A stretch of 64,000 bases of DNA, from assembly GCF_031181385.1 (NCBI RefSeq), contig NZ_JAPSKV010000001.1:186001-250000 (forward strand). Reading direction: 5' to 3'. Every line of letters begins with the position of its first letter. Position 1 is the first letter of the stretch. The notes under the pieces are model-generated. The model made no database searches. It was not told the DNA's origin and saw only the letters and a list, made by a program, of their open reading frames with translations. This DNA comes from Fredinandcohnia onubensis. GTDB taxonomy: Bacteria > Bacillota > Bacilli > Bacillales > Bacillaceae_L. The position numbers were made by a program, and so were the translations under genes. Of this stretch, positions 5,177 to 53,339 are shown in pieces.

Positions 5177-5187
5177 GTTGTGGACCC

Positions 5188-5216: not shown

Positions 5217-5240
5217 GGTGTGAGGGCGGTGAATATGGGC

Positions 5241-5438: not shown

Positions 5439-5470
5439 TGCGTGTACCTCGCAAAATTTGAAGCGAAATG

Positions 5471-5570: not shown

Positions 5571-5661
5571 TTCGGACTTATTAGATTGTTTTTATTTTAA
5601 TTAAAACAATCATTAACTAGTGTCAAAATACCATCGTAATTACATCGCAGAAAGGATAAAA

Positions 5662-5718
5662 ATATTACCAATAGAGTGAATTTATCGCCAATAGGCCACA
5701 TCGCCCAATAAAATATCC
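5662..5718. repeat. Short degenerate 20-bp repeat, (T/A)TCGCCAATA family
   Basis: Three imperfect units with the core tcgcc-aata (first unit attaccaata), spaced 18-20 bases, directly upstream of the SEC-C gene. Weaker than the two preceding arrays. Confidence 0.45.
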
Positions 5719-5763
5719 AAAAAATGTGATATGATAGTGTCATAGGATATCAGAGAAGGGTGA

Positions 5764-6858: not shown

Positions 6859-6871
6859 TGAAAACCAATGA

Positions 6872-6898
6872 CAATCCATTTGATGGGTTGTTTTTTTT
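6872..6898 (+). terminator. Rho-independent terminator after the SEC-C gene
   Basis: An 8-bp stem (CAATCCAT / ATGGGTTG, one G-T pair) with a 3-base loop is followed by eight T. Confidence 0.85.
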
Positions 6899-7159
6899 GT
6901 GGGTTAAAACTTTGTTAAGGTGAATTAAGGCAAAAGTGAATTTGTAAAATTTTCTAAAAAAGGGGATTGCTATTTTCATTATCCATATGTTAGCATACTT
7001 GTATACAAGTACTCATGTATTTAAAAATTCACATAAGTAAGCCACACTATATTTTTTTAACCACAATGAAAGGGCTTACTTAACAAAAAAGACCATTTTC
7101 TTGCAAAAAAGGATCATTAAAAGGATTCTGGGTGCCAGGAAACAAAAAGGGGGATATAT
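6899..7159. other. Promoter region of the sugar-acid operon
   Basis: AT-rich non-coding stretch between a terminator and the first gene of the operon. Apart from the 16-bp palindrome listed separately, no gene or further structure is evident. The strong RBS (AAAAAGGGGG) lies just before 7160. Confidence 0.6.
6996..7011. promoter_or_regulatory. Candidate GntR/FadR-type operator (16-bp perfect palindrome)
   Basis: TACTTGTATACAAGTA is a perfect palindrome containing TTGTATACAA, which fits the T-GT-N-AC-A pattern of GntR/FCD regulators. It sits about 150 bases ahead of the operon whose last gene (15787-16464) is such a regulator. A related TTGTCGACAA site lies at 16552-16561. Confidence 0.65.
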
Positions 7160-8164
7160 ATGTATATTGCTTTTGAGGATATGAAGCATGAAGTTAAACA
7201 AGCATTTTTACGAAATGGACTTAGCGAAGAGCAAGCAGAGCTTTGTTCACAGGTGCATACGGAAAACAGTAGAGATGGAATTGAATCTCATGGCTTGAAC
7301 CGTGTTCCTCGTTTTCTGAATTACGTTAAAAAAGGTTGGATCAATCTTGATGCTGAGCTTGAATTAGTGAACAGCTTCGGTGTTGTTGAACAATATGATG
7401 GACATCGTGGTATAGGTATTATCAATGCGAAAAAAGCTTCACAGCGAGCGATTGAATTAGCGAAAGAAAATGGTGTTGGAATTGTGGCTTTACGTAATAC
7501 AACACACTGGATGCGCGGTGGTACATATATTCTGGATATGATTAATGAAGGATTAATGGGAATTAGCTGGACAAATACAGAATCTTGTATGCCAGCATGG
7601 GGCTCTGCGAATCAAAATATCGGAAACAACCCAATCTGTATGGGTATCCCGAGAGAAGAAGGTCCATTCCTGCTAGATATGGCTGCAAGCCAATTTTCTT
7701 GGGGGAAAATCCAAGTAACACGCCTAGCTGAAAAACAGTTACCATTTGCAGGTGGATTTGATTCTGAAGGTAACGTAACAACAGACCCAGGTAAGGTAGA
7801 GGACTCTGGAAGAATTATGCCGATGGGTTACTGGAAAGGTTCAAGCTTTGCGATTTTACTAGATTTATTTGGATCTGTTCTTGCAAACGGTAACACAACA
7901 GCCATGATGGATGAGATTAATCAAGGAAGCTGTACAGGATGTTCGCAAATCTACATGGCATTTGATCCAAAGCGATTTATAACAGAGGAGCAAATGGAAT
8001 CAATTATCCAAGGCACTGTAGACCAACTAAAGAACAGCATACCAATACAAGAAGGTACGTCAGTACGTTATCCTGGTGAAGGTCAAGCAGCAGCTCGTGA
8101 AAGAAGTAAGACAGAAGGCATTCATGCAGATGATTCTGTTTGGGAAAAGGTTAAGAGTCTATAA
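7160..8164 (+). CDS. Malate/L-lactate dehydrogenase family oxidoreductase, 2,3-diketo-L-gulonate reductase-like (YiaK/DlgD type)
   Basis: A 334-residue NAD(P)H-dependent dehydrogenase of the type-2 malate/lactate family, which is unrelated to classical Rossmann LDH. E. coli YiaK (332 aa) reduces 2,3-diketo-L-gulonate. Family hallmarks are visible: ESHG near residue 38, the RNTTHW segment near 113, and the GNNP segment mid-protein. It opens an operon that also holds YiaMNO-type TRAP genes and a YiaL homologue, and that pairing supports the YiaK assignment over malate or ureidoglycolate dehydrogenase. Expected to act in the cytoplasm on an imported sugar acid. The exact substrate is inferred only. 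Confidence 0.85.
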   Translation: MYIAFEDMKHEVKQAFLRNGLSEEQAELCSQVHTENSRDGIESHGLNRVPRFLNYVKKGWINLDAELELVNSFGVVEQYDGHRGIGIINAKKASQRAIELAKENGVGIVALRNTTHWMRGGTYILDMINEGLMGISWTNTESCMPAWGSANQNIGNNPICMGIPREEGPFLLDMAASQFSWGKIQVTRLAEKQLPFAGGFDSEGNVTTDPGKVEDSGRIMPMGYWKGSSFAILLDLFGSVLANGNTTAMMDEINQGSCTGCSQIYMAFDPKRFITEEQMESIIQGTVDQLKNSIPIQEGTSVRYPGEGQAAARERSKTEGIHADDSVWEKVKSL

Positions 8165-8266
8165 GACTTTTACCTTTTTCAACTGACAGGCGGTATTGAA
8201 AATTCACATAATTGACAACGCTTGCGGTTGATTGGTGATGAAAATTGCGGAGGTGTAGTAGACAAC

Positions 8267-9235
8267 ATGACTGAAAGAAAAGTGATTATTACAGATTGTG
8301 ATCATGATAACTTCGATGCAGAGCAAACTGTATTTTCGAAGGCGGGTTATTCATTTGAATTGCTTCAGTGTAAGACGGAGGATGATGTGATTAACCAGTG
8401 CCAGGGTGCTGTAGCGTTCATTAACCAATATGCACCGATTACAGAAAAAGTTTTTGCTAGTTTACCAGATTTGAAGTTTGTCGTACGCTACGGAGTTGGT
8501 GTTGATAACGTTGACTTGAAAGCGGCAACAAAATATGGCGTGCAAGTTTGTAATGTGCCTGACTATGGAACAAATGAAGTGGCTGACCATGCATTAGCTT
8601 TAATGTTAGCGCTAACACGAAAAATTCCATTCATGAACCAGCTTGTTAAATCTGGAACATGGGATTATTCAAAAAGTATTCCGGTCTACCGCCACAGTGT
8701 TCAAACTGTTGGAATCATCGGCCTTGGTCGGATTGGTACAGCTTTTGCTCATAAGGTCCATGCACTTGGCTGTAAGGTGATTGTTAATGACATTAATGAA
8801 AAAGAAACATATCCAGACTTTGTCGGGTTTGTTTCACTTGAAGAATTGCTTACACAATCAGATGTGGTGTCTATCCACTGTGCCCTTGACACGTCAAGGA
8901 ATTTAATTAGTGAAAAAGAGCTTCAACTTATGAAGCCTTCTGCTTATATTGTCAATGTTTCCCGCGGCGGCATCATTGATGAGGATGCTTTAGATCGCGC
9001 CCTTGATGAAAAATGGATTGCTGGAGCGGCCATTGATGTGGCAAAGTCGGAGCCAATGAGCGCAGACGCCAAATTAATGAGACATGAAAACTTCCTGATT
9101 ACGCCACATATGGCTTGGTATTCAGAGGAAGCAGCAGTTGAGTTGAAACGCAAGGTTGCAGAGGAAACAGTCAGGTTTATAAATGGGGAGCAGGTTCATT
9201 ACCCTGTAAACCAATTAACAGTAGGTAGTAAGTAA
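8267..9235 (+). CDS. D-isomer specific 2-hydroxyacid dehydrogenase
   Basis: A 322-residue NAD-dependent dehydrogenase of the phosphoglycerate / hydroxypyruvate reductase family. The nucleotide-binding GLGRIG lies in the middle, the catalytic-site segments RYGVGVDN, SRGGIIDE and the C-terminal TPHMAW histidine are present, and length is normal. The frame is open from a TTG at 8222, but the ATG at 8267 has GGAGGTG upstream and is preferred. It probably interconverts a 2-keto and a 2-hydroxy acid produced in the pathway encoded by the operon (glyoxylate, hydroxypyruvate or a longer sugar acid). A second family member is encoded at 51069-52028. Confidence 0.88.
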   Translation: MTERKVIITDCDHDNFDAEQTVFSKAGYSFELLQCKTEDDVINQCQGAVAFINQYAPITEKVFASLPDLKFVVRYGVGVDNVDLKAATKYGVQVCNVPDYGTNEVADHALALMLALTRKIPFMNQLVKSGTWDYSKSIPVYRHSVQTVGIIGLGRIGTAFAHKVHALGCKVIVNDINEKETYPDFVGFVSLEELLTQSDVVSIHCALDTSRNLISEKELQLMKPSAYIVNVSRGGIIDEDALDRALDEKWIAGAAIDVAKSEPMSADAKLMRHENFLITPHMAWYSEEAAVELKRKVAEETVRFINGEQVHYPVNQLTVGSK

Positions 9236-9261
9236 ATTTAAATATATAGGAGTGAAGGAAA

Positions 9262-10302
9262 ATGAAAAAGGGGTTTAAATTATTTTCAATTCTTGCAGTA
9301 GCAATCCTAATGATGTCATTCTTGGCAGCGTGTGGAGGAGGCGGCTCTGAGTCAGCTTCCAATGGTGGAGATTCTGAAGGCAAAAAAGATACAAAGGTTT
9401 TAAAGCTAGGCTTTAACCAACCAGAAAATCATCCACAATTTCAAGCGATGGAAGAATTCAGTGAAAAGTTTTTCGAAGAAACAGATGGCGCTTATAAAAT
9501 TGAAATCTATCCAAACGAATTACTAGGCGCTCAGCGTGAAGTTCTTGAGTTAGTTCAATCTGGTACAGTTGCAATGTCTATCACACCGGGAAGTTTATTA
9601 GAAAACTTAAACCAAGATTTCGTTGTATTTAACTTACCGTATGTATTTGATTCTGTTGATCACCAACAGGCTGTTCTAAATAACCCAGATGTAACAAGTG
9701 AGTTATTCTCCTCATTAGAAGGGAATGGTTTAACAGTTCTTGGCGGGTTCCATGGCGGAGTGCGTAACGTATACAACAGTGAGCACCCAGTTAACACGCC
9801 TGAAGATTTAGCGGGTATGAAGGTTCGTGTTATGGAGTCTGATACAAATATTCAAATGATGGAACTTATGGGTGGCGTTGGTACACCAATGGGCCAAGGT
9901 GAAGTATATACAGCTATTCAATCTGGTGTTATCGAAGCTGGGGAAAACAACGAGTTAATCTATAACAACTTAAAGCATGTTGAAATTGCACCATATTATT
10001 CTTACACAAAACACTTAATGGTTCCTGACTACCTAATGATCAATGCAAATGTATTAAAAGAGATGTCTGAAGAACATCAAACACTATTAAAAGAAGGTCT
10101 AACTTCAGCATTTGACCGTGAATTTGAATTATTTGCAGAGTTCGTAGCAGAAGCAAAAGCAGCTGCAGAAGAGCAAGGTGCAGAGTTTAACGATGTTGAC
10201 ATCACAATCTTCCAAGATGCAGTAGCACCATTATTAGAAGAAAAATTAACAAATGATTTCCAAAAAGATTTATATGAAAAGGTACGCGAATTGGCTCAAT
10301 AA
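9262..10302 (+). CDS. dctP: TRAP transporter solute-binding lipoprotein (DctP family)
   Basis: A 346-residue extracytoplasmic binding protein. Residues 1-23 are a lipoprotein signal (lipobox LAAC, then a Gly/Ser-rich tether), so it is anchored to the outer face of the membrane. The body has the DctP fold hallmarks: the N-terminal LGFNQPENHP strand and the KVRVMES segment that normally contains the arginine binding the substrate carboxylate. It feeds the DctQ/DctM permease encoded next. A strong hairpin follows the gene (10312-10343). The context of sugar-acid enzymes points to a uronate- or gulonate-type ligand; this is inference. Confidence 0.93.
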   Translation: MKKGFKLFSILAVAILMMSFLAACGGGGSESASNGGDSEGKKDTKVLKLGFNQPENHPQFQAMEEFSEKFFEETDGAYKIEIYPNELLGAQREVLELVQSGTVAMSITPGSLLENLNQDFVVFNLPYVFDSVDHQQAVLNNPDVTSELFSSLEGNGLTVLGGFHGGVRNVYNSEHPVNTPEDLAGMKVRVMESDTNIQMMELMGGVGTPMGQGEVYTAIQSGVIEAGENNELIYNNLKHVEIAPYYSYTKHLMVPDYLMINANVLKEMSEEHQTLLKEGLTSAFDREFELFAEFVAEAKAAAEEQGAEFNDVDITIFQDAVAPLLEEKLTNDFQKDLYEKVRELAQ

Positions 10303-12382: not shown

Positions 12383-13387
12383 TTGAAGGCAATCGTGTAT
12401 GAAGGACCTCAAACAGTAAGCGTCCAGGAAAGTGCAATGCCTGCATTAAAGGAAGGCTGGGCTTTAATTAAGGCCTCTCACGCAGGCATTTGCGGTACAG
12501 ATTTAATCATATATGGCGGCACGCACCCGCGTGCTGCTGCTCCTCTTATTCCAGGACATGAATTTTCCGGCACGATTGTAAGTGGTCATCCGACCCTACA
12601 GCCGGGAACCCCAGTAACAGTGAATCCATTACTAAGCTGTGGTGCATGTCCACCATGTCAATCAGGTCAAGCCCATGTATGTGAAACTTTACAATTAGTT
12701 GGTATCGACTGCGACGGAGGAATGGGCGAATATGTCCAAGCCCCGATCGATAAAATCATTTCGCTACCTGAAGGTGTTTCCCTAAAGCTTGGTGCCCTAA
12801 TGGAGCCAATTGCAGTAGGTGTCCATGCTGTAAGACAGGCTGGATTTGTACCAGGAGATGAAGCCCTCGTTTACGGAGCTGGAACAATAGGTCTATGTGT
12901 GGCTCTCTCATTAAAAAACTTAGGTGCGCGTAGAGTTGTGATCGTTGAAACAAATCCTGACCGTATTAAAAAGGCGGAGGAACTTGGTTTTACAGCGATT
13001 CATTCTCTCACTCAAGATGTGAAGGAAGTTGTATCAGCGGAAACAAACGGCAGTGGCTTTGATTTTGTTTTTGATTGTGCTGGTCACCCAGCAGTAGCAG
13101 CTCAAGTGACTGAAGTTGTAAAAGTAAGAGGCACAGTTGTAATTGTTGCTTCCTATAAAAATCCTGCGGCCCTTCAATTGCAGCAAGGGATGTTTAAAGA
13201 GCTTTCGATTCGATTTGTTCGCGTCTATACACATAAGGATTTTAAAATTGCCGCTGAATTAGTAGCAAAAGAACCAAACTTTGAAAAAATCATTACACAT
13301 GTCCTCCCACCTGAAGAAGCACAAAAGGGATTTGAGCTGTTAACAACTCCTTCTGATGCTGTCAAGGTCATGTATTCTTTCGGATGA
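12383..13387 (+). CDS. Zinc-dependent alcohol/polyol dehydrogenase (MDR family)
   Basis: A 334-residue medium-chain dehydrogenase, expected to oxidise a secondary alcohol of a sugar acid or polyol with NAD(P). Catalytic zinc ligands C37, H59 and E60 and the structural zinc cysteines C86, C89, C92 and C100 are all present, followed by a Rossmann GAGTIG motif. A TTG at 12383 is chosen as start because GGAG at 12371-12374 is well placed for it; the earlier GTG at 12374 overlaps that RBS. It is one of three related dehydrogenases in the window (also 16609 and 47549). Its exact substrate is not readable. Confidence 0.87.
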   Translation: MKAIVYEGPQTVSVQESAMPALKEGWALIKASHAGICGTDLIIYGGTHPRAAAPLIPGHEFSGTIVSGHPTLQPGTPVTVNPLLSCGACPPCQSGQAHVCETLQLVGIDCDGGMGEYVQAPIDKIISLPEGVSLKLGALMEPIAVGVHAVRQAGFVPGDEALVYGAGTIGLCVALSLKNLGARRVVIVETNPDRIKKAEELGFTAIHSLTQDVKEVVSAETNGSGFDFVFDCAGHPAVAAQVTEVVKVRGTVVIVASYKNPAALQLQQGMFKELSIRFVRVYTHKDFKIAAELVAKEPNFEKIITHVLPPEEAQKGFELLTTPSDAVKVMYSFG

Positions 13388-13397
13388 GGTGAGGAAA

Positions 13398-14153
13398 ATG
13401 AATAAATTATTTGATTTAACCGGAAAAGTAGCTGTTGTCACAGGTGGTACGCGTGGTCTTGGGAAAGATATTGCCATCGGGCTAGCAAGTGCAGGGGCAG
13501 ATGTTGTCGTTGTGGCACGTACTATAAAAGAAGACGCACTTGAAGAAATCCGTAGCCAAGGTGTGAAGGCAGTAGGAATCTCATACGATCTTGGTGATGT
13601 TGATGGGCTTGACGGTTTAGTTGAGCAAATTATCGGGGGAATTGGCAAAATTGATATTTTAGTCAATAATGCAGGAGTTCAACGAAGACATCCTTCCGTG
13701 GAATTTCCTAAAGAAGATTGGGATCTCGTTATGGATGTCAACGCAAATGCTGTCTTTTTCCTTTGTCAAAAGGTTGGCAAACATATGATTGAACAAGGTA
13801 AAGGTAAGATTATAAATCTAGCATCAATGCTTTCGTACTTTGGTGGCTTCACGGTACCAGCCTATGCAGCAAGTAAAGGCGCGGTCATGCAATTTTCAAA
13901 AGCATTGGCAAATGAGTGGGCAAAGCATCGTGTGAATGTCAACTGTATCGCACCAGGCTATATGGCAACTGAAATGAATTCAGCGTTAATTGCGGACGAA
14001 ACACGCAATAAGGAAATCTTAGCTCGAATTCCAGCAGGACGTTGGGGTACCGGTGAAGATTTACAAGGAGCCGCTATTTTCTTAGCCTCAGATGCTTCCG
14101 ACTATCTGCATGGATTTACAATAGCAGTCGACGGAGGCTACCTAGGCAGATAA
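13398..14153 (+). CDS. kduD: 2-dehydro-3-deoxy-D-gluconate 5-dehydrogenase (KduD-like SDR)
   Basis: A 251-residue short-chain dehydrogenase. The TGGTRGLG cofactor motif (about residue 16), NNAGVQRR, the serine in ASMLSY, YAASK, and the tail PAGRWG...SDYLHGFTIAVDGG follow KduD closely. KduD interconverts 2,5-diketo-3-deoxygluconate and 2-keto-3-deoxygluconate in uronate breakdown. The start at 13398 is set by GAGGTGAGG upstream, although the frame extends into the previous gene. It lies 10 bases after the alcohol dehydrogenase gene. No KDG kinase or aldolase gene is visible here, so later steps must be encoded elsewhere. Confidence 0.87.
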   Translation: MNKLFDLTGKVAVVTGGTRGLGKDIAIGLASAGADVVVVARTIKEDALEEIRSQGVKAVGISYDLGDVDGLDGLVEQIIGGIGKIDILVNNAGVQRRHPSVEFPKEDWDLVMDVNANAVFFLCQKVGKHMIEQGKGKIINLASMLSYFGGFTVPAYAASKGAVMQFSKALANEWAKHRVNVNCIAPGYMATEMNSALIADETRNKEILARIPAGRWGTGEDLQGAAIFLASDASDYLHGFTIAVDGGYLGR

Positions 14154-43484: not shown

Positions 43485-44351
43485 ATGAGTGAGTTAAATG
43501 TTAATACGAATCCTGGCTTTTTTACAAGAATAAATGCTGCGATGACAAAGCTTAGAGATTCAGAAAAGAAAATTGTCGATTTTATTGAGAAAAACCAAGA
43601 TGAAATTATTCATTTGTCAATAACTGAGGTGGCAGAAAGAAGTGAAACAAGTGAATCTTCTGTCGTACGCTTATGTAAGCGCCTTGGTTATAAGGGTTTC
43701 CAAGATTTAAAAATTCACTTGGCAAGGGAATTAATCTCTCCTGAAAAGCAGATACATGAAGTGATTGAAAAAGGAGATGATGTTGAAAAAATTAAAAAGA
43801 AGGTTTTTCAATCAAACATTCAGGCACTTTATGATTCAATGGAGGTTTGTAGTGATGAAGAGATTCAAAAAGCAGTGAATGCAATCTCGAAAGCTCGCTT
43901 GATAGAATTCTATGGTAACGGTGGGTCAGGAACTGTGGCATTGGATGCCCATCATAAACTATTAAAATTAGGGATTAAATCTTTCGCTTATAATGATTCT
44001 GTTTTACAGGCAATGTCTGCAAGTGTTCTTACGGAAAATGACGTTGTTATTGGTATTTCTCATACTGGTTCAAATACAGATGTTTTAGCAGCGATGAAAC
44101 TAGCGAAAGAAGCAGGCGCAACTCTCATTTGTATTACGAATGCATCTAAATCACCAATCACAAATATCTCAGATATTGTTTTACAAACGGCTTCTAAGGA
44201 AACGCTTTTTCGAACAGACGCAATATCTTCAAGGATTGCACAATTAACAATTATCGATATCCTAGTAGCGGCAGTTGCAAACCATAAATATGAATTTACC
44301 TATAACAATCTTCAAAAAACGCGAAGATCGACTATTGATAAAAAGCTATAA
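43485..44351 (+). CDS. RpiR family transcriptional regulator (HTH + SIS)
   Basis: A 288-residue regulator. The N-terminal HTH_6 domain (about 1-77) has the EVAERSETSESSVVRLCKRLGYKGF segment (shown here in parts). The SIS phosphosugar-binding domain follows (about 125-260) with FYGNGGSG and GISHTGSNTDV. It should sense a sugar phosphate made by the kinase at 49563. Own promoter region and strong RBS (GAAGGGGG). It precedes the TRAP/aldolase cluster, and two copies of a 17-bp motif in that cluster (44405, 47485) are its likely targets. Confidence 0.9.
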   Translation: MSELNVNTNPGFFTRINAAMTKLRDSEKKIVDFIEKNQDEIIHLSITEVAERSETSESSVVRLCKRLGYKGFQDLKIHLARELISPEKQIHEVIEKGDDVEKIKKKVFQSNIQALYDSMEVCSDEEIQKAVNAISKARLIEFYGNGGSGTVALDAHHKLLKLGIKSFAYNDSVLQAMSASVLTENDVVIGISHTGSNTDVLAAMKLAKEAGATLICITNASKSPITNISDIVLQTASKETLFRTDAISSRIAQLTIIDILVAAVANHKYEFTYNNLQKTRRSTIDKKL

Positions 44352-44404: not shown

Positions 44405-44421
44405 TGAAGGAAATTACCACC
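44405..44421. promoter_or_regulatory. Candidate RpiR operator, copy 1
   Basis: TGAAGGAAATTACCACC overlaps a possible -35 (TTGAAG at 44404). It matches 47485-47501 at 15 of 17 positions, and the inner GGAAATTACC is nearly palindromic. Confidence 0.6.
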
Positions 44422-44538: not shown

Positions 44539-45573
44539 ATGAAGAAGATACTCACACTATTTTTAATGGCATTATTGTCAGTAGCTTTGGTAGCATGTGG
44601 TAGCTCTGCAAGTGGTGGAGAGGAAAATGGGGCAGAAAAAAAGGTAACTTTTACACTAGCTACTCCGGATCCAGATGAGGCATCTGTAACTCTAGCTGCA
44701 AAAGAATTTGCGAAGGTAGTTTCAGAGAAAAGTAATGGTTCAATTGAAATTAAGGTTCATGCAAATGGAACATTATATGGTGGGGATCCTTCTGCTGCAG
44801 TTAAGCAACTAGGAGCAGGAAGCTTGGATATGCTCGTGCTCTCAACTTCTCTTTATGCGAACTTTGAACCTAAATTTAGCGCTATTAGTATTCCGTATTT
44901 ATTTGATGATAAAGACCAATTTGTATCTTTCTTAAATGGGGATCTTGGTACTGAACTATTAGGTTCAGTATCTGAGTTAGGCATTCACGGACTAGGATAT
45001 TGGACACGTGACTTCAGACAAATCACAAACTCTAAAAATCCAATTACAAAACCAGAAGATTTAAAAGGGCTTAAGCTACGCGTACCTAACAATCCATTAT
45101 GGGTTGAGTTTTTTAAAGGGGCAGGTACAGTAACAACTCCAATGGATTTTAGTGAAGTATATAACGCGTTACAATTAAAAACAATCGATGGACAGGAAAA
45201 TCCACTTGGTGTTATCACTTCAGCAAAAATGTATGAAGTACAAGAATACTTAACAATTTCTAACCACATGGCTGATGGCTGGGTAGTAGGAATTAACCAA
45301 GGAAAATTTGATTCTTTAACAGATGAGCAACAAAAGATCTTAACTGAAGCTTCAAAGGAAATTCAAGGTTGGGCTTTAGATTATGATAATAAAGAAGCTG
45401 AAACAGCAATTGAGTTCCTTGAAGGTGAAGGAGTAAAGGTTAATGAGCTAACAAGTGAGCAGCAACAGCTATTCGTTGAAATTTCAAAGAAAGCGTATCC
45501 AACATTTAAAGAACTTGTAAAAGACGATGAATTCTTTACAAAAGTACTAGAGTTTGTCGGGAAAAGTGAGTAA
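44539..45573 (+). CDS. dctP: TRAP transporter solute-binding lipoprotein (DctP family)
   Basis: A 344-residue lipoprotein binding protein. Signal and lipobox VALVACGS lie at about 14-21. Family signatures are LATPDPDEASVTL at the mature N-terminus, KLRVPNN (about 179, ligand-binding Arg) and the DGQENPLGVITSAKMYEVQEYL segment. It delivers the substrate to the DctQ/M pair encoded next. Sequence differs clearly from the other DctP at 9262, so a different ligand is likely. A hairpin follows (45589-45613). Confidence 0.92.
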   Translation: MKKILTLFLMALLSVALVACGSSASGGEENGAEKKVTFTLATPDPDEASVTLAAKEFAKVVSEKSNGSIEIKVHANGTLYGGDPSAAVKQLGAGSLDMLVLSTSLYANFEPKFSAISIPYLFDDKDQFVSFLNGDLGTELLGSVSELGIHGLGYWTRDFRQITNSKNPITKPEDLKGLKLRVPNNPLWVEFFKGAGTVTTPMDFSEVYNALQLKTIDGQENPLGVITSAKMYEVQEYLTISNHMADGWVVGINQGKFDSLTDEQQKILTEASKEIQGWALDYDNKEAETAIEFLEGEGVKVNELTSEQQQLFVEISKKAYPTFKELVKDDEFFTKVLEFVGKSE

Positions 45574-45588
45574 ATTTAGGTGAGTTTG

Positions 45589-45613
45589 CGGTCCCTAAAT
45601 CGATAAGGGACCG
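45589..45613 (+). promoter_or_regulatory. Intercistronic hairpin after the binding-protein gene
   Basis: CGGTCCCT and AGGGACCG form a perfect 8-bp stem with a 9-base loop, without a strong T run. It sits at the same place as the hairpins at 10312 and 60405. Confidence 0.75.
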
Positions 45614-45641
45614 TATTTAACATCAAGTGAGGGAGAGAGCT

Positions 45642-46154
45642 ATGGTAAAGGATGGTAATAAAAAAGTTAATCCTGTATTTCGGGCCATCAATAGCATAAC
45701 TGATACATTGGCCTCCTTGACGGCTGCGGGCATATTTGTAGTAGTAATCTGGCAAGTCATTGGTAGATTAATAGGGCAACCAGCACCGTGGACTGAGGAA
45801 TTAACAAGATTTATGTTTATATGGTTGATTTATCTGGGAATTGGAATCGGGTTTCGTAAAGTCGAATCTGCAAGGGTTACATTACTAATAAACTATTTTC
45901 CTAAATTTTTGCAAAAGGGATCAGTATGGATCTATAGTATTGCTTCAATTGGATTCTTTTTATTTATGGTTGTTTTAGGTATCGAATTAATGTCACAGCA
46001 AATTAACACCAATGAAACTAGTTCTGTATTGTTATTACCAATGTGGATTATAGGACTTTGTGTTCCATTTTCAGGTTTGATTGGGATTATCAATACCATC
46101 CAATCACTCATATATGACCGTGCGCTTATTGAAGAAGAGGAGGTGGAGAATTAA
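45642..46154 (+). CDS. dctQ: TRAP transporter small membrane subunit (DctQ family)
   Basis: A 170-residue protein with four membrane helices and the DctQ signature VIGRLIGQPAPWTEELTRFM. ATG at 45642 has GAGGGAGAG upstream; an upstream GTG at 45627 lacks a RBS. Its stop overlaps the dctM start (TAATG), so translation is coupled. Confidence 0.9.
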   Translation: MVKDGNKKVNPVFRAINSITDTLASLTAAGIFVVVIWQVIGRLIGQPAPWTEELTRFMFIWLIYLGIGIGFRKVESARVTLLINYFPKFLQKGSVWIYSIASIGFFLFMVVLGIELMSQQINTNETSSVLLLPMWIIGLCVPFSGLIGIINTIQSLIYDRALIEEEEVEN

Positions 46155-47431
46155 TGTCAATTTTTTTACTTGTATTATTCTTCATCTTAATGTTTATCGG
46201 TATACCTATTGCTACCTCACTTGGTATTTCAGTAGTTGCGAGTGTGCTTATTTTTACAGATGTTCCAATTAGTATCGTTATTCAATCAATGTATAGCTCG
46301 ATGAATAGCTTTATCATGGTTGCCGTTCCACTCTTTATCTTGGCAGGAATTATCATGGATGAAGGTGGAGTTGCAGAAAAAATCTTTGACTTTGCAAAGA
46401 GTCTTGTTGGTTGGATGACTGGTGGACTAGGGCACGTAAATGTTCTAGCAAGCTTAATTTTTGCTGGTATGGCTGGTTCTTCTGTCGCGGATATTGCTAG
46501 TACTGGTCGTATTACAATAAATGCGATGACCAAAAACAAATATCCTTTAGAATACGCAGCAGCATTAACGTTAATAACATCTATGCTAGCAACAATCGTT
46601 CCACCAAGTATATTAATGGTAGTTGCCGCATCAACAGCAGGTGTTTCAATAGGAGCAGCCTTGGTTGGAGGGCTAGTACCAGGTTTAATTATTGCTTTTA
46701 TTTTTATGGGGTACAACCATTATTATAGTAAAAAGCATAATTTTGGGGTCCATCAAAAATTTGAATGGAAGGTACTTGGAAGAGAATTCATACGTGCTTT
46801 TCCGGCATTGTTAGCGCCAGTAATATTACTTGCTGGTATCTTAAGTGGAATATTCACACCGACAGAGGCAGCTGCTATTGCGGTGTTATATACATTATTT
46901 GTAGCGTTATTTGTTTATAAAGGATTATCATTTAAAAAATTACCTAATATCTTTTTTAGAACAGCAAACCTAACAGGTACTATTCTTTTTATCGCAGTAA
47001 CTGCTAAGGCAGCAAGTTGGGTGTTTGAATATGATGGTCTTCCTACAAAGGTAGCAACCTTCATTAGTGGTATAAGTGATAGTAAGATTGTAATTATGTT
47101 GTTGTTATTTGTATTTCTAATTATTGTTGGAATGTTTATGGATGCAACAGCCGCAATATTTATCCTTGTGCCAATTTTAATGCCAACGATCCATTCAGTC
47201 GGTATCGATCCTGTATTTTTTGTGATTTATTTAGTTGTACTACTTTCAGTTGGATTAGTTACACCACCGATTGGAGTATGCCTATACGCCACCTCTAATA
47301 TTACAGGGATGAAGATAGAAACCTTAAGTAAAGCAACCTTACCATGGTTAGTTGTAACTTTTGCTGCATTACTGTTGTTTATTTTTGTACCTCAGTTAAT
47401 TACAGTGCCGATTAGTTGGTTTGATTTATAA
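46154..47431 (+). CDS. dctM: TRAP transporter large membrane subunit (DctM family)
   Basis: A 425-residue sodium-coupled permease with about twelve helices. Conserved loops are GMAGSSVADIASTG, IVPPSILMVV, LAGILSGIFTPTEAAAIA and GMFMDATAAIFILVPIL. Its ATG overlaps the dctQ stop. It is followed by a strong terminator, so the transporter forms its own transcription unit separate from the enzyme genes. Confidence 0.93.
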   Translation: MSIFLLVLFFILMFIGIPIATSLGISVVASVLIFTDVPISIVIQSMYSSMNSFIMVAVPLFILAGIIMDEGGVAEKIFDFAKSLVGWMTGGLGHVNVLASLIFAGMAGSSVADIASTGRITINAMTKNKYPLEYAAALTLITSMLATIVPPSILMVVAASTAGVSIGAALVGGLVPGLIIAFIFMGYNHYYSKKHNFGVHQKFEWKVLGREFIRAFPALLAPVILLAGILSGIFTPTEAAAIAVLYTLFVALFVYKGLSFKKLPNIFFRTANLTGTILFIAVTAKAASWVFEYDGLPTKVATFISGISDSKIVIMLLLFVFLIIVGMFMDATAAIFILVPILMPTIHSVGIDPVFFVIYLVVLLSVGLVTPPIGVCLYATSNITGMKIETLSKATLPWLVVTFAALLLFIFVPQLITVPISWFDL

Positions 47432-47443
47432 TAACTAGTTTGA

Positions 47444-47474
47444 AATTAAGGAGAAAATATTCTCCTTAATTTTT
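47444..47474 (+). terminator. Terminator after the TRAP operon
   Basis: AATTAAGGAGAA and TTCTCCTTAATT form a perfect 12-bp stem with a 4-base loop, followed by a short T run. Confidence 0.82.
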
Positions 47475-47484
47475 ATAAAAAATA

Positions 47485-47501
47485 TGAAGGAAATCTCCAC
47501 C
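47485..47501. promoter_or_regulatory. Candidate RpiR operator, copy 2
   Basis: TGAAGGAAATCTCCACC, differing from the motif at 44405 at two positions. It lies 64 bases before the dehydrogenase ATG, just upstream of a TATACTATATAC box that may be the -10. Confidence 0.6.
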
Positions 47502-47548
47502 AAATGTTGTATACTATATACTAAGACGAAATGGGAGTGTGGTTTGAG

Positions 47549-48586
47549 ATGAAAGCAGCAGTTTTTCATGGACCAAACAAATTACAATTAGAGGAAGTAC
47601 AAAAACCACAAATAAACGAGCATGAAATTCTTTTAAGGGTTAATGCAAGTGCGGTTTGTGGAACAGACGTAAGAATCTTTGAAGGAAAGAAAACAAAGGG
47701 AGTACGTACTCCTTCCATTATTGGTCATGAGCTTGTAGGAACAATTGAAGAAGTTGGATCCACGGTGAAAGATTTCTTCACTGGTGACCGAGTTGGTGTA
47801 ATGCCTGTTATCCCTTGTCGTAAATGCTACTATTGCCAAAATGGCAGAGAAAATGTATGTGCAAACCGTACTGCTATCGGGTATGAGTATGACGGAGGTT
47901 TTGCTGAATATGTACGAATCCCAAGTGCTGCAGTAGAAGCTGGAAACATCGTTAAGATTCCTGATCATATTTCATTTGAGCAAGCGGTAGTAACTGAACC
48001 TTTAGCGTGCTGTATCAATGGCCAACGAAAAGCCAATGTGAAAATGGGTGATGTTGTCGTTGTTGTTGGAGGAGGCCCAATTGGACTTATGCATGTGCAA
48101 TTAGCAAAAATTGCAGGTGCGAAATCAGTTATACTAAGCGAACCAATTGAACACCGTCGTGAAAAAGCTATTAAAGCCGGTGCAGATTTTGCAGTTAATC
48201 CAAATGAAGAATCTCTAGAGGACCTTGTATTAAATCTAACAGACGGCCTTGGTGCGGATGTTGTTCTCATGGCAATTGGAGTACCTTTCTTAGTAAAATC
48301 CTGCGCAAACCTTCTGAAAAAAGGCGGAACTTTGAATTTGTTTGCTGGATTTACAAAAGGAGTTTTATCTGAAATTGATCCTAACATCATTCACTATAAT
48401 GAAATTACAGTCAATGGAACCTCTGCATTAACACGTGCAGATTATCATAAATCCTTAGCATTGATTGCCACAGGTAAAATTAATACGGAAGTACTAACGA
48501 CAACTGGTTATACATTAGATACCATCGAACAGGCTATTTTAGATGTTAGAAATGGCAATGGAATGAAATCGGTTATTACGTTATAA
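47549..48586 (+). CDS. Zinc-dependent alcohol/polyol dehydrogenase (sorbitol/threonine dehydrogenase-like)
   Basis: A 345-residue MDR dehydrogenase with catalytic ligands C37, H60 and E61, structural cysteines C90, C93, C96 and C104, and GGGPIG as cofactor motif. It should oxidise a polyol or sugar-acid hydroxyl with NAD. The start is the ATG at 47549 with GGGAGTG upstream; the ATG at 47531 is out of RBS range. First enzyme gene of the RpiR cluster, behind its own promoter and candidate operator. Confidence 0.87.
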   Translation: MKAAVFHGPNKLQLEEVQKPQINEHEILLRVNASAVCGTDVRIFEGKKTKGVRTPSIIGHELVGTIEEVGSTVKDFFTGDRVGVMPVIPCRKCYYCQNGRENVCANRTAIGYEYDGGFAEYVRIPSAAVEAGNIVKIPDHISFEQAVVTEPLACCINGQRKANVKMGDVVVVVGGGPIGLMHVQLAKIAGAKSVILSEPIEHRREKAIKAGADFAVNPNEESLEDLVLNLTDGLGADVVLMAIGVPFLVKSCANLLKKGGTLNLFAGFTKGVLSEIDPNIIHYNEITVNGTSALTRADYHKSLALIATGKINTEVLTTTGYTLDTIEQAILDVRNGNGMKSVITL

Positions 48587-48716
48587 GATTCGTAATCTGC
48601 CAAGTTAGCATAGTTTAAATGAAGAAAGTAGTTAAGGATCTTGAAAAGTGTGTGTGTGATTCCCTTTAAGGTAACTATAAAATAACAAATATTAAAAAAC
48701 TAAGGAGTGTTTTATT

Positions 48717-49541
48717 ATGGCATTATTAGGTAAAGAGGTTCGGATGAGTAGATTATTAAATCAAGAGACTGGAAAACTATTAGCTGTTGCAGTTGATCAA
48801 GCGATGGCAAGAGGTATTTTCGATGAATTAATGCCAATCAATCGTAAGGTTAGTGAAATTGTTGCAGGTGGCCCAGATGCAATGACAATGCATAAAGGGA
48901 TTGCGGATATGAGCTATCGTCCACACGTTGGAAAAACAGGTCTTATCTTAAAACTCTCTACTTTTTCACCATGGCAGCCAAATTATGATGCTTGGGTTAC
49001 AGAAGTGGATGAAGCTGTTCGTTTAGGAGCAGATGCTGTTTCAATGGGTTGTATTGTTGGAGGAGATGATCAACCTGAACAACTTCGTAACCTAGGAATC
49101 GTTTCAGGTCAGGCTGCTGCCCTTGGAGTTCCAATGATTGCGCATATCTATCCAAGAGGAAACCAAATACCTGATCACGAAAAGAATGATTGGAAGCATG
49201 TTGCATATGCGGTGCGTGCAGGTGCTGAATTAGGTGTTGATATTGTAAAAACAAAGTATACAGGTAATCCTGATACATTCAGAAAAGTAGTTGAATCAAC
49301 ACCTGGTAAAGTTGTAGTTGCGGGTGGAGACAATGGAAATAACATTGAAGACTATTTCCAAATGGTATACGATGTAATTGATGCTGGAGGTACTGGTATT
49401 ACATTCGGTCGAATCGTTTGGAATAACCCAAATCCGACAGCAGTTGTAAAAGCGTTTAAAAACATTATCCATCATGGTGGAACTGTAAAAGAAACAGTAG
49501 AATTGTATAATGAGTTAATTAATCAACCAGCAAACGTATAA
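48717..49541 (+). CDS. DeoC/LacD (LsrF/Fba-I) family class I aldolase-like protein
   Basis: A 274-residue TIM-barrel protein. The segment GVDIVKTKYTG contains the lysine expected to form the Schiff base, and VVVAGGDNG and ITFGRIVWNN close the phosphate site, as in LsrF and archaeal-type class I FBP aldolases. The usual AFDHG near the N-terminus reads AVDQA, so the substrate is likely unlike FBP. RBS AAGGAG 10 bases upstream. Position between a dehydrogenase and an FGGY kinase suggests it cleaves the phosphorylated ketose made by the cluster. Confidence 0.85.
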   Translation: MALLGKEVRMSRLLNQETGKLLAVAVDQAMARGIFDELMPINRKVSEIVAGGPDAMTMHKGIADMSYRPHVGKTGLILKLSTFSPWQPNYDAWVTEVDEAVRLGADAVSMGCIVGGDDQPEQLRNLGIVSGQAAALGVPMIAHIYPRGNQIPDHEKNDWKHVAYAVRAGAELGVDIVKTKYTGNPDTFRKVVESTPGKVVVAGGDNGNNIEDYFQMVYDVIDAGGTGITFGRIVWNNPNPTAVVKAFKNIIHHGGTVKETVELYNELINQPANV

Positions 49542-49562
49542 TACAAATAGGTGTGATAGATT

Positions 49563-51068
49563 ATGTCTCACGTTATTGGGATTGACATCGGAACAAGTGG
49601 TATTAAAGTAGGCGCAATGAATCAAGAAGGAGTATTGGGGTACCTTGAGTACCAACCATACTCCCTTCTTTATCCTAAAAAGACTTGGATAGAAATTGAC
49701 CTTGAAGATATTTGGGATAAAACCAAATCATTGCTATTAAAAGTATGTAATGAAGTAGAGAAAGGTGGAAGCGTTGATGCAATCTCGCTATCTACCTTTT
49801 GCAATTCATCAGTGTTTTTAAATAAAGATGGCAAGCCTCTATATCAGGGAATTATATACCTAGACCAGAGGAGTAAAGAAGAATCTGATTGGATTAAAAA
49901 TGTAGTCGGTGTGGACAACTTGGACAGAATCACGAAAAATCGACTAGAGCCAGGGATGTATACAGTGACAACTCACCTTTGGTTTAAAAATCACTTTCCT
50001 AAGGACTATGAAAAAACGTATAAATGGGGAAATTTATCCACTTTTATTTTGCATAAGCTAACAGGGGAATTTGTGATGGACTGGACTCAAAGTTCGTATT
50101 CAGGAATTTACGATGTCGTGAACTATGAGTGGTCAAAGGAGATTTATGAAAAAGTAGGGGTCGATGAGAAGAAACTGCCTAAAGTAGTAGATCCAAAATC
50201 TGTAGTTGGAAATGTAAAAATACCTGAATTGTCTTCGAAAAAAATACCTGTTATTTCGGGTGCTGCAGATACTGCGTGCTCAACTGTTGCTTTACGCATT
50301 AAACCCAATGAAATGTTTGAATCTGTTGGTACATCAAATGTCCTAACGGTATGTACAGATCTACCTGAAAAATTGGATAAGCGATTCCTAAATCGGTGTC
50401 ATGTCAACAAACACCAATGGCTTTCTCACGGAGCTATGTCTTTTCCTGGGGCATCAATTCAGTGGTTCTATGACAATTTCCTAAAAACAGAAGGGCATAC
50501 AAAGGAAATATATGGAGAATTGTATAATCAATCCTCTATAGGATCCAATGGCGTATATTTCCTGCCGTATATGCAAGGTGAAAGATCGCCAATATGGGAT
50601 CCAAATGCAAGAGGTGTTTTTGTAGGAATTCATTTGAACACATCCAAAGCAGATATGTTCCGTGCTATTTTAGAGGGCTGTGCCTTTGGTTTAAAGCAGA
50701 TTTATGAAATTATTGAAACAAATTATAACCTCCAGTTTGATCGATTTCAATCAATTGGTGGTGGTTCAAAGAACAAGGAATGGGCACAAATTAAAGCCAA
50801 TGTCTTAAATAAGAACATTGAGATTAAGGATATATCTGAAACTGGTGTGTTAGGAGCCTGTTTACTTGCAGGAACAGCTATTGGTTATTTTCCATCCTTA
50901 GAAGAAGCAGCACAAGTAATAGATAACAAAACGATCAATGTTGTAGAACCGAAGACAAGTGAGGTTGCCCAATACGAAGACTTATATGAAGTGTTTTGTG
51001 AGCTATATCCGTCATTAAAGCAATTCTTTGTGAGTAGTGTGGCACAGAGGTTGGAGAAGGGTGAATAG
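49563..51068 (+). CDS. FGGY family carbohydrate kinase
   Basis: A 501-residue sugar kinase. GIDIGTSGIKVGAM (ATP phosphate loop), the internal SGAADTACS (catalytic Asp region) and SIGGGSKNKEWAQIKANVL (adenosine loop) are clear. The family includes xylulo-, glucono- and AI-2 kinases. It is 21 bases after the aldolase gene and its stop abuts the next ATG. Likely phosphorylates the keto product of the dehydrogenase at 47549. The FGGY plus LsrF-type pairing also occurs in AI-2 (lsr) systems, but no other lsr gene is present. Confidence 0.9.
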   Translation: MSHVIGIDIGTSGIKVGAMNQEGVLGYLEYQPYSLLYPKKTWIEIDLEDIWDKTKSLLLKVCNEVEKGGSVDAISLSTFCNSSVFLNKDGKPLYQGIIYLDQRSKEESDWIKNVVGVDNLDRITKNRLEPGMYTVTTHLWFKNHFPKDYEKTYKWGNLSTFILHKLTGEFVMDWTQSSYSGIYDVVNYEWSKEIYEKVGVDEKKLPKVVDPKSVVGNVKIPELSSKKIPVISGAADTACSTVALRIKPNEMFESVGTSNVLTVCTDLPEKLDKRFLNRCHVNKHQWLSHGAMSFPGASIQWFYDNFLKTEGHTKEIYGELYNQSSIGSNGVYFLPYMQGERSPIWDPNARGVFVGIHLNTSKADMFRAILEGCAFGLKQIYEIIETNYNLQFDRFQSIGGGSKNKEWAQIKANVLNKNIEIKDISETGVLGACLLAGTAIGYFPSLEEAAQVIDNKTINVVEPKTSEVAQYEDLYEVFCELYPSLKQFFVSSVAQRLEKGE

Positions 51069-52028
51069 ATGAAAAAGACGGTTTATATTACGAGGAAGAT
51101 GCCAAAGGAGATTTATGAAAAACTTGCAATGCATTTTGACGTAAAAATGTGGCATGAGGAGACAATACCTGTACCGCGTGAGGTTTTGTTAAAGGAAGTT
51201 GAAAATGTGGATGGTCTCTATTGTCTATTAACAGACACAATTGATAAAGAGGTTTTTGATCATGCTCCCAATTTAAAGGTTGTTAGCAATTTAGCTGTTG
51301 GCTACAACAATATTGATGTTAAAGAAGCAACAAGTCGTAGAATTATTGTTACAAATACTCCTGGTGTATTAACAGAAACAACGGCCGATTTAACATTTGC
51401 TCTGTTAATGGCGACGGCAAGACGGGTTATTGAGGCATCAGATTTCTTGCGTAGCGGTGAGTGGGGGGCTTGGTCACCTATGGAACTGACGGGCCAAGAT
51501 ATTTATGGGGCTACAATTGGAATTATAGGAATGGGTCGGATAGGAGAGGCTCTAGTTAAGAGGGCGAAGGGCTTCAATATGGAAGTCATTTATTATAATC
51601 GGTCACGTAAACTAGAAACAGAAAAAAACTTAGGAATTAAATACGTAGATTTACACACCCTGTTAAAAAAATCTGATTTTGTATGTCTTCTACTTCCTTA
51701 TAGTCCAGAGGTTCATCATTTAATTGGAGAAGAGGAGCTTTCTCTCATGAAGAATGAAGCAATTTTAATCAATAGTGCTAGAGGTGGTATTGTTGATGAG
51801 ACTGCTTTATATCATGCCCTTAAGAACAATCAAATATGGGCTGCGGGATTGGATGTATTTGAAGAGGAACCTGTGCCTCTTGATCATCCTTTACTTACTT
51901 TACCTAATGTAGTAACTCTACCACATATTGGTAGTGCAAGTGTGAAAACGAGAACAAACATGGCGCATCTGGTAGCAGATAATATAATTAATGTACTTCA
52001 AGGTAGAGAACCCCTATCAAAAGTTTAA
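51069..52028 (+). CDS. D-isomer 2-hydroxyacid dehydrogenase (glyoxylate/hydroxypyruvate reductase-like)
   Basis: A 319-residue NAD(P)-dependent reductase. GIIGMGRIGEALVKRAKGF (cofactor), NLAVGYNN (substrate Arg region), NSARGGIVDE and PHIGSAS (catalytic His) match glyoxylate/hydroxypyruvate reductases. ATG begins directly after the kinase stop (TAGATG), so translation is coupled. It would remove a two- or three-carbon keto acid released by the aldolase. Last gene of the RpiR cluster. Confidence 0.9.
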   Translation: MKKTVYITRKMPKEIYEKLAMHFDVKMWHEETIPVPREVLLKEVENVDGLYCLLTDTIDKEVFDHAPNLKVVSNLAVGYNNIDVKEATSRRIIVTNTPGVLTETTADLTFALLMATARRVIEASDFLRSGEWGAWSPMELTGQDIYGATIGIIGMGRIGEALVKRAKGFNMEVIYYNRSRKLETEKNLGIKYVDLHTLLKKSDFVCLLLPYSPEVHHLIGEEELSLMKNEAILINSARGGIVDETALYHALKNNQIWAAGLDVFEEEPVPLDHPLLTLPNVVTLPHIGSASVKTRTNMAHLVADNIINVLQGREPLSKV

Positions 52029-52388
52029 AAGGTAGACTGAAATGATTGACGAACACCACTGTCGCATTTAGTAGTTTATTCTACAAAATTGACGAATATT
52101 AGTTGCAAGGGGATGCCACGATTTATTAAAGGAAATTTTTCGAGCAGTAAGATCAAAGACTAAATACGCCACTTCCTGTGGCAATGTCTTTATGACCCAC
52201 TTCCTGTGGGCCTAAAAATCGGGCGCAAATACGCCAAGGTGTGTTTGATTAGGAAGGGTATCACGTGTGTGGTGCCCTTTTTAACGTTATTATATAGATT
52301 TTTGTCGAAATTTGTGATTCGACACTAGGTAAGAGTGCAAATTTAGGTTATATTATATATAGAATATTTTTTGCATGGAGGACTAACA
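52029..52388. other. Intergenic region with remodelled 104-bp element and prs leader
   Basis: About 360 bases. The middle is copy 3 of the structured element. To its right, a TTGTGATTCG...TATATTATATATAGAAT stretch (about 52310-52365) is a plausible promoter for prs. No gene is seen. Confidence 0.5.
52111..52250 (+). repeat. 104-bp structured element, copy 3 with inserted hairpins
   Basis: Matches copies 1 and 2 from ggatgccacgatt through ttcgagca, and again from aaaatcgggcgcaaatacgccaagg to the right end. The apical loop is replaced by about 60 bases holding two hairpins with the same core, GCCACTTCCTGTGGC and CCCACTTCCTGTGGG. The left 20 bases of the element are missing. The outer stem is kept. 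Confidence 0.75.
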
Positions 52389-53339
52389 GTGGCTTACCAA
52401 TTGAATCAGTGTTTTAAAATGTTTACTTTAAATTCGAATCCTAAACTGGCAGAGGAAATGGCATCGTTATTAGGGTGCGAATTAGGAAAGTGTTCGGTTA
52501 CACGTTTTAGCGATGGAGAAATCCAAATAAATATAGAAGAAAGTGTTCGAGGTAGCGAGGTCTATTTAGTACAGTCAACTTCACAGCCTGCAAATGAACA
52601 TATTATGGAATTATTAATTATGATTGATGCGTTAAAACGCGCTTCTGCAAAAAACATCAATCTTGTCATCCCATACTATGGTTACGCGAGACAGGACCGC
52701 AAAGCGCGCTCACGCGAACCTATCACTGCTAAGCTTGTTGCAAATCTACTGGAAAAAGCGGGAGCAACGAGGGTTGTAACCATGGACCTGCACGCACCAC
52801 AAATCCAAGGATTTTTCGATATTCCTGTTGATCAATTACTTGGCGTACCCCTTCTAGCGAAATATTTTGCTGAAAAAGGGCTCGAAGATGTTGTCATCGT
52901 TGCGCCTGACCAAGGTGGAGTTGTTCGAGCAAGAAAATTAGCGAGCCAACTAAATGTACCAATTGCATTTATCGACAAGCGTCGTCCGAAGCCAAATGTA
53001 GCACAGATTATGAACATCGTTGGTAACATTGAAGGTAAAAATGCGATCATCATTGACGACCTGATTGATACAGCTGGAACCATAACCCTAGCCGCGAAAG
53101 CATTAAAGGAAATGGGAGCAAAAGGTGTATACGCATGTTGTACGCACCCAGTCCTATCCGGTCCAGCGATTGAAAGAATTGAATCTTCACCAATACAAGA
53201 ACTGGTAATCACAAACACAATCCAATTACCAGAAGAAAAACAAATTGACAAAATCACAACAATCTCAGTTGCACCATTACTAGTGAATGCAATTGACCGC
53301 ATCCACAACGAAAGAGCTGTTAGTCCTTTATTCGAATAA
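52389..53339 (+). CDS. prs: Ribose-phosphate pyrophosphokinase (PRPP synthetase)
   Basis: A 316-residue class I PRPP synthetase (ribose-5-P + ATP to PRPP + AMP). Motifs are [33 protein letters not shown] (ATP loop), [18 protein letters not shown] and the PRPP loop [11 protein letters not shown]. The start is GTG at 52389 with GGAGG 8 bases upstream; the ATG at 52371 lies before the RBS. It is not in the glmU-prs arrangement typical of Bacillus, so it may be a second copy. It supplies PRPP for Xpt encoded nearby. Confidence 0.92.

Follow-up and report, generated by a model that had tools for sequence, protein, structure and literature searches.

A conserved gene cluster under an RpiR-family regulator in Fredinandcohnia onubensis may encode an undescribed sugar-acid pathway

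What use would a bacterium have for a TRAP transporter, a zinc dehydrogenase, a class I aldolase, a sugar kinase and a hydroxyacid dehydrogenase encoded side by side behind one regulator gene? The question is raised by a locus of Fredinandcohnia onubensis in a stretch of 64,000 nucleotides (contig NZ_JAPSKV010000001.1, positions 186,001 to 250,000), which is called the window here; coordinates refer to it. The reading we favour, while giving it slightly less than an even chance, is an inducible, RpiR-repressed pathway for a sugar acid (aldonate), with a six-carbon substrate (C6) likelier and a five-carbon one (C5) possible, in which the aldolase would yield dihydroxyacetone phosphate (DHAP) and an oxo-acid. 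The genes are:

43485..44351, + strand: RpiR-family regulator with HTH_6 and SIS domains (Pfam PF01418, 87 bits; PF01380, 73 bits)
44539..45573, + strand: DctP, TRAP solute-binding lipoprotein (PF03480, 278 bits)
45627..46154, + strand: DctQ, TRAP small permease (PF04290, 92 bits)
46154..47431, + strand: DctM, TRAP large permease (PF06808, 381 bits)
47531..48586, + strand: zinc-dependent medium-chain dehydrogenase/reductase of the polyol/sugar-acid type (ZnDH; PF08240 and PF00107)
48717..49541, + strand: class I aldolase of the DeoC/LacD family, DhnA type (PF01791, 121 bits)
49563..51068, + strand: FGGY carbohydrate kinase, XylB/GntK-like (PF00370 and PF02782)
51069..52028, + strand: D-2-hydroxyacid dehydrogenase (D2HDH) of the glyoxylate/hydroxypyruvate reductase type (NF009714, 422 bits against a cut-off of 455)

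The seven genes from dctP onwards form an uninterrupted + strand run from 44539 to 52028, all of them intact and exactly where a first reading made from the letters alone (the sequence-only reading) had placed a TRAP importer, zinc dehydrogenase, FGGY kinase, class I aldolase and glyoxylate/hydroxypyruvate reductase. From RpiR to D2HDH the intergenic gaps are 187, 53, -1, 99, 130, 21 and 0 bp, and the true start of ZnDH may lie 18 bp downstream (MKAAVF). In two F. onubensis genomes the aldolase shows 100% identity. RpiR is probably a local repressor responsive to a phosphosugar.

Searches with the aldolase returned 12 loci from a genome contig collection and matches in 11 of 60 relatives (E≤0.001), in 11 of 396 genomes of the order (E≤1e-60) and in 10 of 398 genomes of the phylum (E≤1e-45), the last three counts including the window's own genome. 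The few matching genomes among relatives, order and phylum indicate that the set is sparse. Where a close aldolase is present, it is accompanied by its cluster neighbours: RpiR, ZnDH, aldolase, FGGY kinase, D2HDH and a transporter occur together in all 19 assessable Bacillales loci (the window, L002-L006, L008-L013 and L044-L050), the transporter being TRAP in 15 and a major facilitator superfamily (MFS) protein in four (L005, L006, L009 and L011). L002 and L003 nearly duplicate the window, L043 lies on the same contig as L010, and L007, whose 3.5-kb contig showed no more than ZnDH and aldolase, was left out. The gene set recurs beyond chance and is conserved as a unit. The search for the same set in other genome neighbourhoods that the sequence-only reading proposed has succeeded, also in finding the same enzyme types on a Rhizobium plasmid (see below). 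Its self-contained logic of import, oxidation, phosphorylation, cleavage and reduction stands as far as a conserved unit under RpiR is concerned, but gene order does not fix oxidation before phosphorylation. In Halobacillus andaensis (L010, positions 4909-5777) the RpiR gene is read as two overlapping frames, the result of a sequencing error or of a regulator that is truly broken.

What, then, ties the unit to its regulator? Two exact copies of an operator-like 17-bp motif stand in the window, one before dctP and one before ZnDH, and no other exact site was found in it:

44405..44421, + strand: TGAAGGAAATTACCACC, upstream of dctP, 0 mismatches
47485..47501, + strand: TGAAGGAAATCTCCACC, upstream of ZnDH, 0 mismatches

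TGAAGGAAATTACCACC or close variants are common to the 19 upstream regions compared (the RpiR-DctP intergenic region in TRAP loci), with AATTACCACC in 17 of the 19. Since the dctP-side regions, and in the four MFS loci those before ZnDH, supplied the motif, the sites in them are circular as evidence. The ZnDH-side sites of the 15 TRAP loci were not used in this way, though the window's own was in view: nine are exact, two have one mismatch, two have two, and two loci have none within two mismatches. Further independent sites precede D2HDH, which has its own operator, exact in L006 and with one mismatch in L005, and an exact site in L005, likewise independent of the derivation, lies upstream of a gene pair for phosphoribosyl pyrophosphate (PRPP) synthase and glycerate kinase. 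In the window the copy at 44405 overlaps a -35-like TTGAAG (starting at 44404) that is followed, after an 18-nt spacer, by an extended -10 TATCAT ending at 44433. Such an overlap is what a repressor site would show, an argument that is weak because promoter-like sites in the region are no commoner than in shuffled sequence. The second copy, before ZnDH, implies a second regulated promoter.

A scan of the 19 cluster genomes with the pattern TGAAGRAAATNWCCACC at up to one mismatch gave 59 matches, 30 exact and 29 with one mismatch. All 30 exact copies fall inside the cluster (those of G004 and G006 being placed by converting coordinates), as do eight of the one-mismatch matches. Of the 21 found elsewhere, 20 were checked, the 21st being a duplicate sequence, and each of the 20 falls within an open frame; length was the sole criterion for a frame, and some frames may be due to chance. 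The reversed pattern, used as a control, gave 30 matches in the same genomes, so that the matches outside the cluster represent background. A wider regulon was considered and, with 20 of 20 checked outside matches inside such frames, rejected. It seems that RpiR would contact sites confined, in exact form, to its own cluster. In Bacillus sp. USDA818B3_A (L006, positions 12804-13540) a NUDIX hydrolase-like gene adjoining the cluster, named by eye and with no NCBIfam match at 1e-30, has an operator with one mismatch 209 bp upstream of it.

The enzymes belong to known families. ZnDH has both the catalytic and the structural zinc motifs and is under the cut-off for all 25 NCBIfam models among the matches listed; the FGGY kinase scores 318 bits against the XylB model (cut-off 380). 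The aldolase is a DhnA-type member of the DeoC/LacD family, over the PF01791 cut-off and with the Schiff-base Lys and the Asp and Tyr aligned. It is homologous to MJ0400 (E=5.7e-55), and its D27, Y145 and K178 align with MJ0400 D33, Y153 and K184, which we take to be the catalytic residues of that enzyme. The GG and GR residues of what is presumably the phosphate loop are invariant in the alignment, which speaks for cleavage to DHAP. AVDQA (residues 25-29), which had been read from the sequence alone as an altered active-site motif, in fact retains the catalytic Asp27; its Gln occurs in 10 of 10 Bacillales rows of one alignment and, in a second, in three Bacillales rows with His in the other eight. 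Gln for His is a Bacillales substitution, found only in Bacillales among the rows aligned.

The pairing of an FGGY kinase with a DhnA-type aldolase is also that of the lsr operon (LsrK and LsrF), and the sequence-only reading was accordingly reminded of autoinducer-2 (AI-2) processing. The shared superfamilies are as far as the likeness goes: the aldolase scores 123.4 against the LsrF model NF006081 (cut-off 297) and the kinase 122.2 against the LsrK model NF008187 (cut-off 528), and a zinc dehydrogenase, D2HDH and TRAP transporter have no known place in AI-2 processing. Moreover, in G006, a Fredinandcohnia genome with the cluster, the lsr genes form an operon of their own that includes an ABC importer (L061, contig 23). 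Of the four genes scanned in it, LsrK (745 bits), LsrF (417) and LsrB (457) are over their cut-offs and LsrA (559) is under its cut-off of 586; the first two served as positive controls for both models. Given the failed curated cut-offs and the separate operon, we reject processing of AI-2 or an AI-2-like compound, which is barely conceivable here.

Automatic annotation would call the aldolase a 2-amino-3,7-dideoxy-hept-6-ulosonate (ADTH) synthase of an aromatic or antibiotic pathway; it passes the looser subfamily model NF005556 (251.9 against 241), and the Rhizobium copy is so annotated. Yet the equivalog TIGR01949 fails (215.8 against 299.45), the neighbours here are import and catabolic genes, and a Streptomyces copy that does stand beside a 3-dehydroquinate synthase II gene lies outside the cluster clade. 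On the curated cut-off and the gene context we reject ADTH synthesis too as very improbable. The model for archaeal-type class I fructose-bisphosphate (FBP) aldolase, NF040816, is likewise not reached (160.9 against 430). A maximum-likelihood tree of 33 aldolases has a branch (support 90/85, present in 86% of bootstrap trees) that sets the 25 rows from the cluster apart as a group from the LsrF, ADTH-synthase and FBP aldolase rows, although several outgroup branches are long and their exact placing is unsure.

The transporters bear on the substrate. DctP, DctQ and DctM together match the profiles of a DctP-type TRAP system, and the closest solved relative of DctP is 7bbr, which we take to be the protein CxaP, followed by 4p47, 4pdh and 4nq8. 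In a survey that compares homologues of a different binding protein, 2-keto-3-deoxy-D-gluconate is the ligand in 7BBR, the binding site (4P47 numbering) comprises Arg152, Arg173, Asn213 and an aromatic residue at 196, and an acid at position 76 lines it in all but one of the homologues surveyed (PMC11668362). All of these carboxylate-site residues, two Arg, the Asn, the aromatic and the acid, align in DctP when read off the 4p47 alignment. The ligands given for CxaP in another paper are xylonate, fuconate, galactonate and gluconate (PMC12076931). In the loci where MFS replaces TRAP, the best model for the L005 protein is the D-galactonate transporter (244 bits, under the cut-off of 395) and its best solved relative is the D-galactonate transporter DgoT; the L006, L009 and L011 proteins are 70-91% identical to it. 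In an alignment by eye the L005 protein keeps DgoT Y44, D46, R47, Y79, E133 and N393 and does not keep Q164 (for the roles of the compared residues, see PMC6532931). An aldonate is therefore the predicted ligand.

With carboxylate-type transport by two kinds of protein, and with a dehydrogenase, a DHAP-type aldolase and a sugar kinase beside it, the set points to an aldonate whose cleavage would give DHAP and an oxo-acid. The aldonate anion would enter through the TRAP transporter or, in some relatives, the DgoT-like MFS symporter. ZnDH would oxidise the hydroxyl adjoining the terminal CH2OH to a ketone and the FGGY kinase would phosphorylate the terminal hydroxyl, in either order. The aldolase, through a Schiff base at Lys178, is predicted to split the resulting (omega-1)-keto-omega-phospho-acid into DHAP and an oxo-acid, which would be tartronate semialdehyde (tautomer of hydroxypyruvate) from a hexonate and glyoxylate from a pentonate. 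D2HDH would then reduce the oxo-acid to D-glycerate in the C6 case and to glycolate in the C5 case, and in the C6 version a glycerate kinase would pass D-glycerate into glycolysis. Repression of both promoters by RpiR, through the TGAAGGAAATTACCACC operator, would end once a phosphorylated intermediate had formed.

Outside Bacillales, seven loci of other Bacillota (L051-L057) carry an aldolase 46-53% identical to that of the window together with an FGGY gene, and in six of the seven ZnDH adjoins them; this count leaves out L058 and L059, whose aldolases are 32-35% identical. Wider searches around two further Bacillota matched in 1 of 17 and 5 of 22 cases and yielded two additional loci, L064 and L065. 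The DctP proteins of L052 and L055 are 65% identical to that of the window, and the MFS protein of L054 shares 60% identity with the N. cucumis one. In L053 the place between aldolase and FGGY kinase, usually that of ZnDH, is taken by a PdxA-like gene (TIGR00557, 305 bits against a cut-off of 290). The PdxA family oxidises the carbon adjoining CH2-OP, and because of this a PdxA-like stand-in for ZnDH would fit the scheme. In L051 (positions 2626-9981) two parallel sets lie side by side, ZnDH, FGGY kinase and a class II aldolase beside ZnDH, FGGY kinase and a class I aldolase, the class II enzyme being OtnC/FucA-like and under the cut-offs. A DhaK-like gene directly precedes dctP in L052 (4315-5313) and L055 (13560-14558), the family match being that of the L052 gene, and no DhaL gene was recognised by eye beside it in either. 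L018-L020, L022, L023, L058 and L059, inspected lightly, have distant aldolases.

The most distant occurrence is a segment of a Rhizobium sp. X9 plasmid, from polluted mud:

NZ_CP071314.1, 48543-67355 (L066): TRAP, D2HDH, aldolase, ZnDH, FGGY kinase and an FCD regulator between IS5 and IS21, on a plasmid typed as mobilizable

Its DctP is 54% and its ZnDH 52% identical to those of the window. It was reached by a plasmid search, our only route to Alphaproteobacteria, which matched 241 records. Among the best 30 of these, only the Rhizobium aldolase exceeds 40% identity, and among the five regions opened only this one has the full set; in two others, aldolases annotated as FBP aldolases stand amid ABC transporter and sugar-enzyme genes.

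How long is the substrate, and what becomes of the oxo-acid? The D2HDH has the Arg, Glu and His motifs, presumably catalytic, and a cofactor motif of the NADPH type. The window's type of D2HDH occurs in 16 of the 19 Bacillales loci; L005, L006 and L012, like Rhizobium X9, have another subfamily, which suggests repeated recruitment, and the nearest match of the Rhizobium enzyme is the replacement type of N. cucumis (40% identity). A glycerate kinase follows the cluster as an extra copy in three of the 19 loci, L004 (TIGR00045, 467 bits against a cut-off of 168), L005 and L012 (both PF02595 matches), and each of these genomes has two copies. Its presence in three clusters, in two-copy genomes and once behind the operator argues for D-glycerate, hence for C6.

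A pentonate is the alternative that D2HDH itself suggests: a C5 aldonate would become 4-keto-5-phosphopentonate and be cleaved to DHAP and glyoxylate, with glycolate as the end of the pathway. The best curated model of the enzyme is glyoxylate reductase (NF009714, 33 bits short of the cut-off; GhrB, 324 against 492), as is its best solved relative (2dbq), and no isomerase would be required, which matches the finding of none over the cut-off. We nonetheless regard this version as unlikely, as the glycerate kinase downstream of the cluster in L004, L005 and L012 would have no task in it, and as glycolate, unless oxidised again, would lead nowhere.

Several observations weigh against the C6 scheme, or against the aldonate scheme as a whole, in which every reaction, the chain length and the substrate are what we infer from sequence, starting from the observed genes, their conservation, the motif and its distribution, the gene replacements and the aldolase clade. 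The resemblance of D2HDH to glyoxylate reductase suits C5 better. Glycerate kinase stands in only three of the 19 clusters, and in two other cluster genomes (G196 and G802) the extra copy lies away from the cluster. A glycerate kinase is present somewhere in 21 of 21 cluster genomes (17 of Bacillales and four of other Bacillota, the near-copies G004 and G006 being left out) against 180 of 199 genomes of the order, and was dropped as evidence on that account. Hydroxypyruvate isomerase is over its cut-off in none of the 21 genomes, including that of the window, and tartronate semialdehyde reductase in only five, that of the window not among them. We therefore rejected both as the missing step, and it follows that in the C6 version D2HDH must accept tartronate semialdehyde or await its tautomer. 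Neither is known chemistry for a D2HDH. In the seven other Bacillota loci D2HDH was not identified in the operon, L053 having a SerA-like D2HDH about 3.6 kb downstream behind opposite-strand genes; reduction therefore looks like an add-on to the core. The DhaK-like gene of L052 is superfluous to the scheme, and a second PRPP synthase downstream of the operon is left unexplained by it.

Hydroxypyruvate might also arise directly, either from a 2-keto-6-phosphohexonate, together with glyceraldehyde 3-phosphate, or from a branched 2-C-hydroxymethyl acid cleaved at its tertiary alcohol, together with DHAP or hydroxyacetone phosphate; D2HDH would then give D-glycerate. This would account for D2HDH and glycerate kinase with neither an isomerase nor a tartronate semialdehyde reductase over the cut-off in the window's genome. 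However, the known aldolases of the family act on substrates with the phosphate beside the Schiff-base ketone, which the 2-keto-6-phosphate form lacks, and the branched form is purely hypothetical. We consider direct release of hydroxypyruvate improbable. Branched 2-C-hydroxymethyl acids arise from cellulose in alkali. We return to the aldonate scheme in comparing the cluster with known systems.

One step of similar logic is that of IolC and IolJ in myo-inositol breakdown, where a 5-keto sugar acid is end-phosphorylated and cleaved by an aldolase (2-deoxy-5-keto-gluconate 6-phosphate aldolase) to DHAP and malonate semialdehyde. Its kinase is of another family, and TRAP, RpiR and D2HDH are not known to be part of it. 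Its aldolases also differ, being IolJ or DUF2090 (PMC9007349). The end of the galactarate/glucarate pathway likewise leads from a three-carbon oxo-acid through D-glycerate to a phosphorylated product (PMC12076931). Unlike here, cleavage in that route gives pyruvate, and its substrates are aldarates. The chain there is tartronate semialdehyde, D-glycerate and 2-phosphoglycerate, with a reductase of the beta-hydroxyacid type. The tetronate pathways (DUF1537 kinase, PdxA2, OtnC) combine end phosphorylation, oxidation beside the phosphate and breakdown to DHAP, and are echoed by the PdxA-like gene in L053 and the OtnC-like one in L051; they differ from the FGGY kinase and class I aldolase found here, and no DUF1537 match was found among the ten proteins profile-scanned. 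Finally, yiaKLMNOPQRS joins TRAP import of a sugar acid, 2,3-diketo-L-gulonate, to an FGGY kinase (LyxK) acting on a keto-acid. It proceeds by a decarboxylase and epimerases, not an aldolase, and the window's DctM scores only 267 against the YiaN model (cut-off 800).

That no described pathway has exactly this set, as the sequence-only reading held, agrees with the open-licence literature, in which we found no match; subscription papers were outside the scope, which makes this negative weak. The enzyme families are all known, and it is their combination, the aldolase clade and the operator that are new as far as we searched. The operator, the links to glycerate kinase and PRPP synthase, the swapping of transporters and the occurrence in another phylum are additions to that reading.

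Beyond the operon lie two further features:

52249..52284, + strand: terminator-like hairpin 3' of the operon, 16-pair stem with a T-rich tail
52389..53339, + strand: second intact PRPP synthase, GTG start behind GGAGG

Eleven of the 19 loci have a PRPP synthase after the cluster, one of them (L005) with the operator before it; upstream of the window's copy no motif was found within three mismatches. The genome's other copy has a different location, next to a gene that was judged by eye to be GlmU-like. The cluster copy is 85% and 83% identical to two Neobacillus cluster copies and 73% to the genome's other copy.

Taken at its broadest, the locus could represent a new aldolase specificity in an undescribed, horizontally mobile pathway, converting an (omega-1)-keto-omega-phosphoaldonate or a branched 2-C-hydroxymethyl acid to triose phosphate and tartronate semialdehyde or hydroxypyruvate under an RpiR operator whose exact copies are exclusive to the cluster, a proposal that we put forward tentatively and think rather more apt to fail than to hold. 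If true, these bacteria would have a sugar-acid route in which no carbon is lost as CO2 and no dehydration of the Entner-Doudoroff type is needed, and a function would be found for a clade of aldolases that satisfy a model bearing the name of ADTH synthase and, in the Rhizobium record, carry that annotation. The gene set is small enough for rebuilding in vitro, and the operator provides a sequence tag by which members of the pathway may be located in new genomes.

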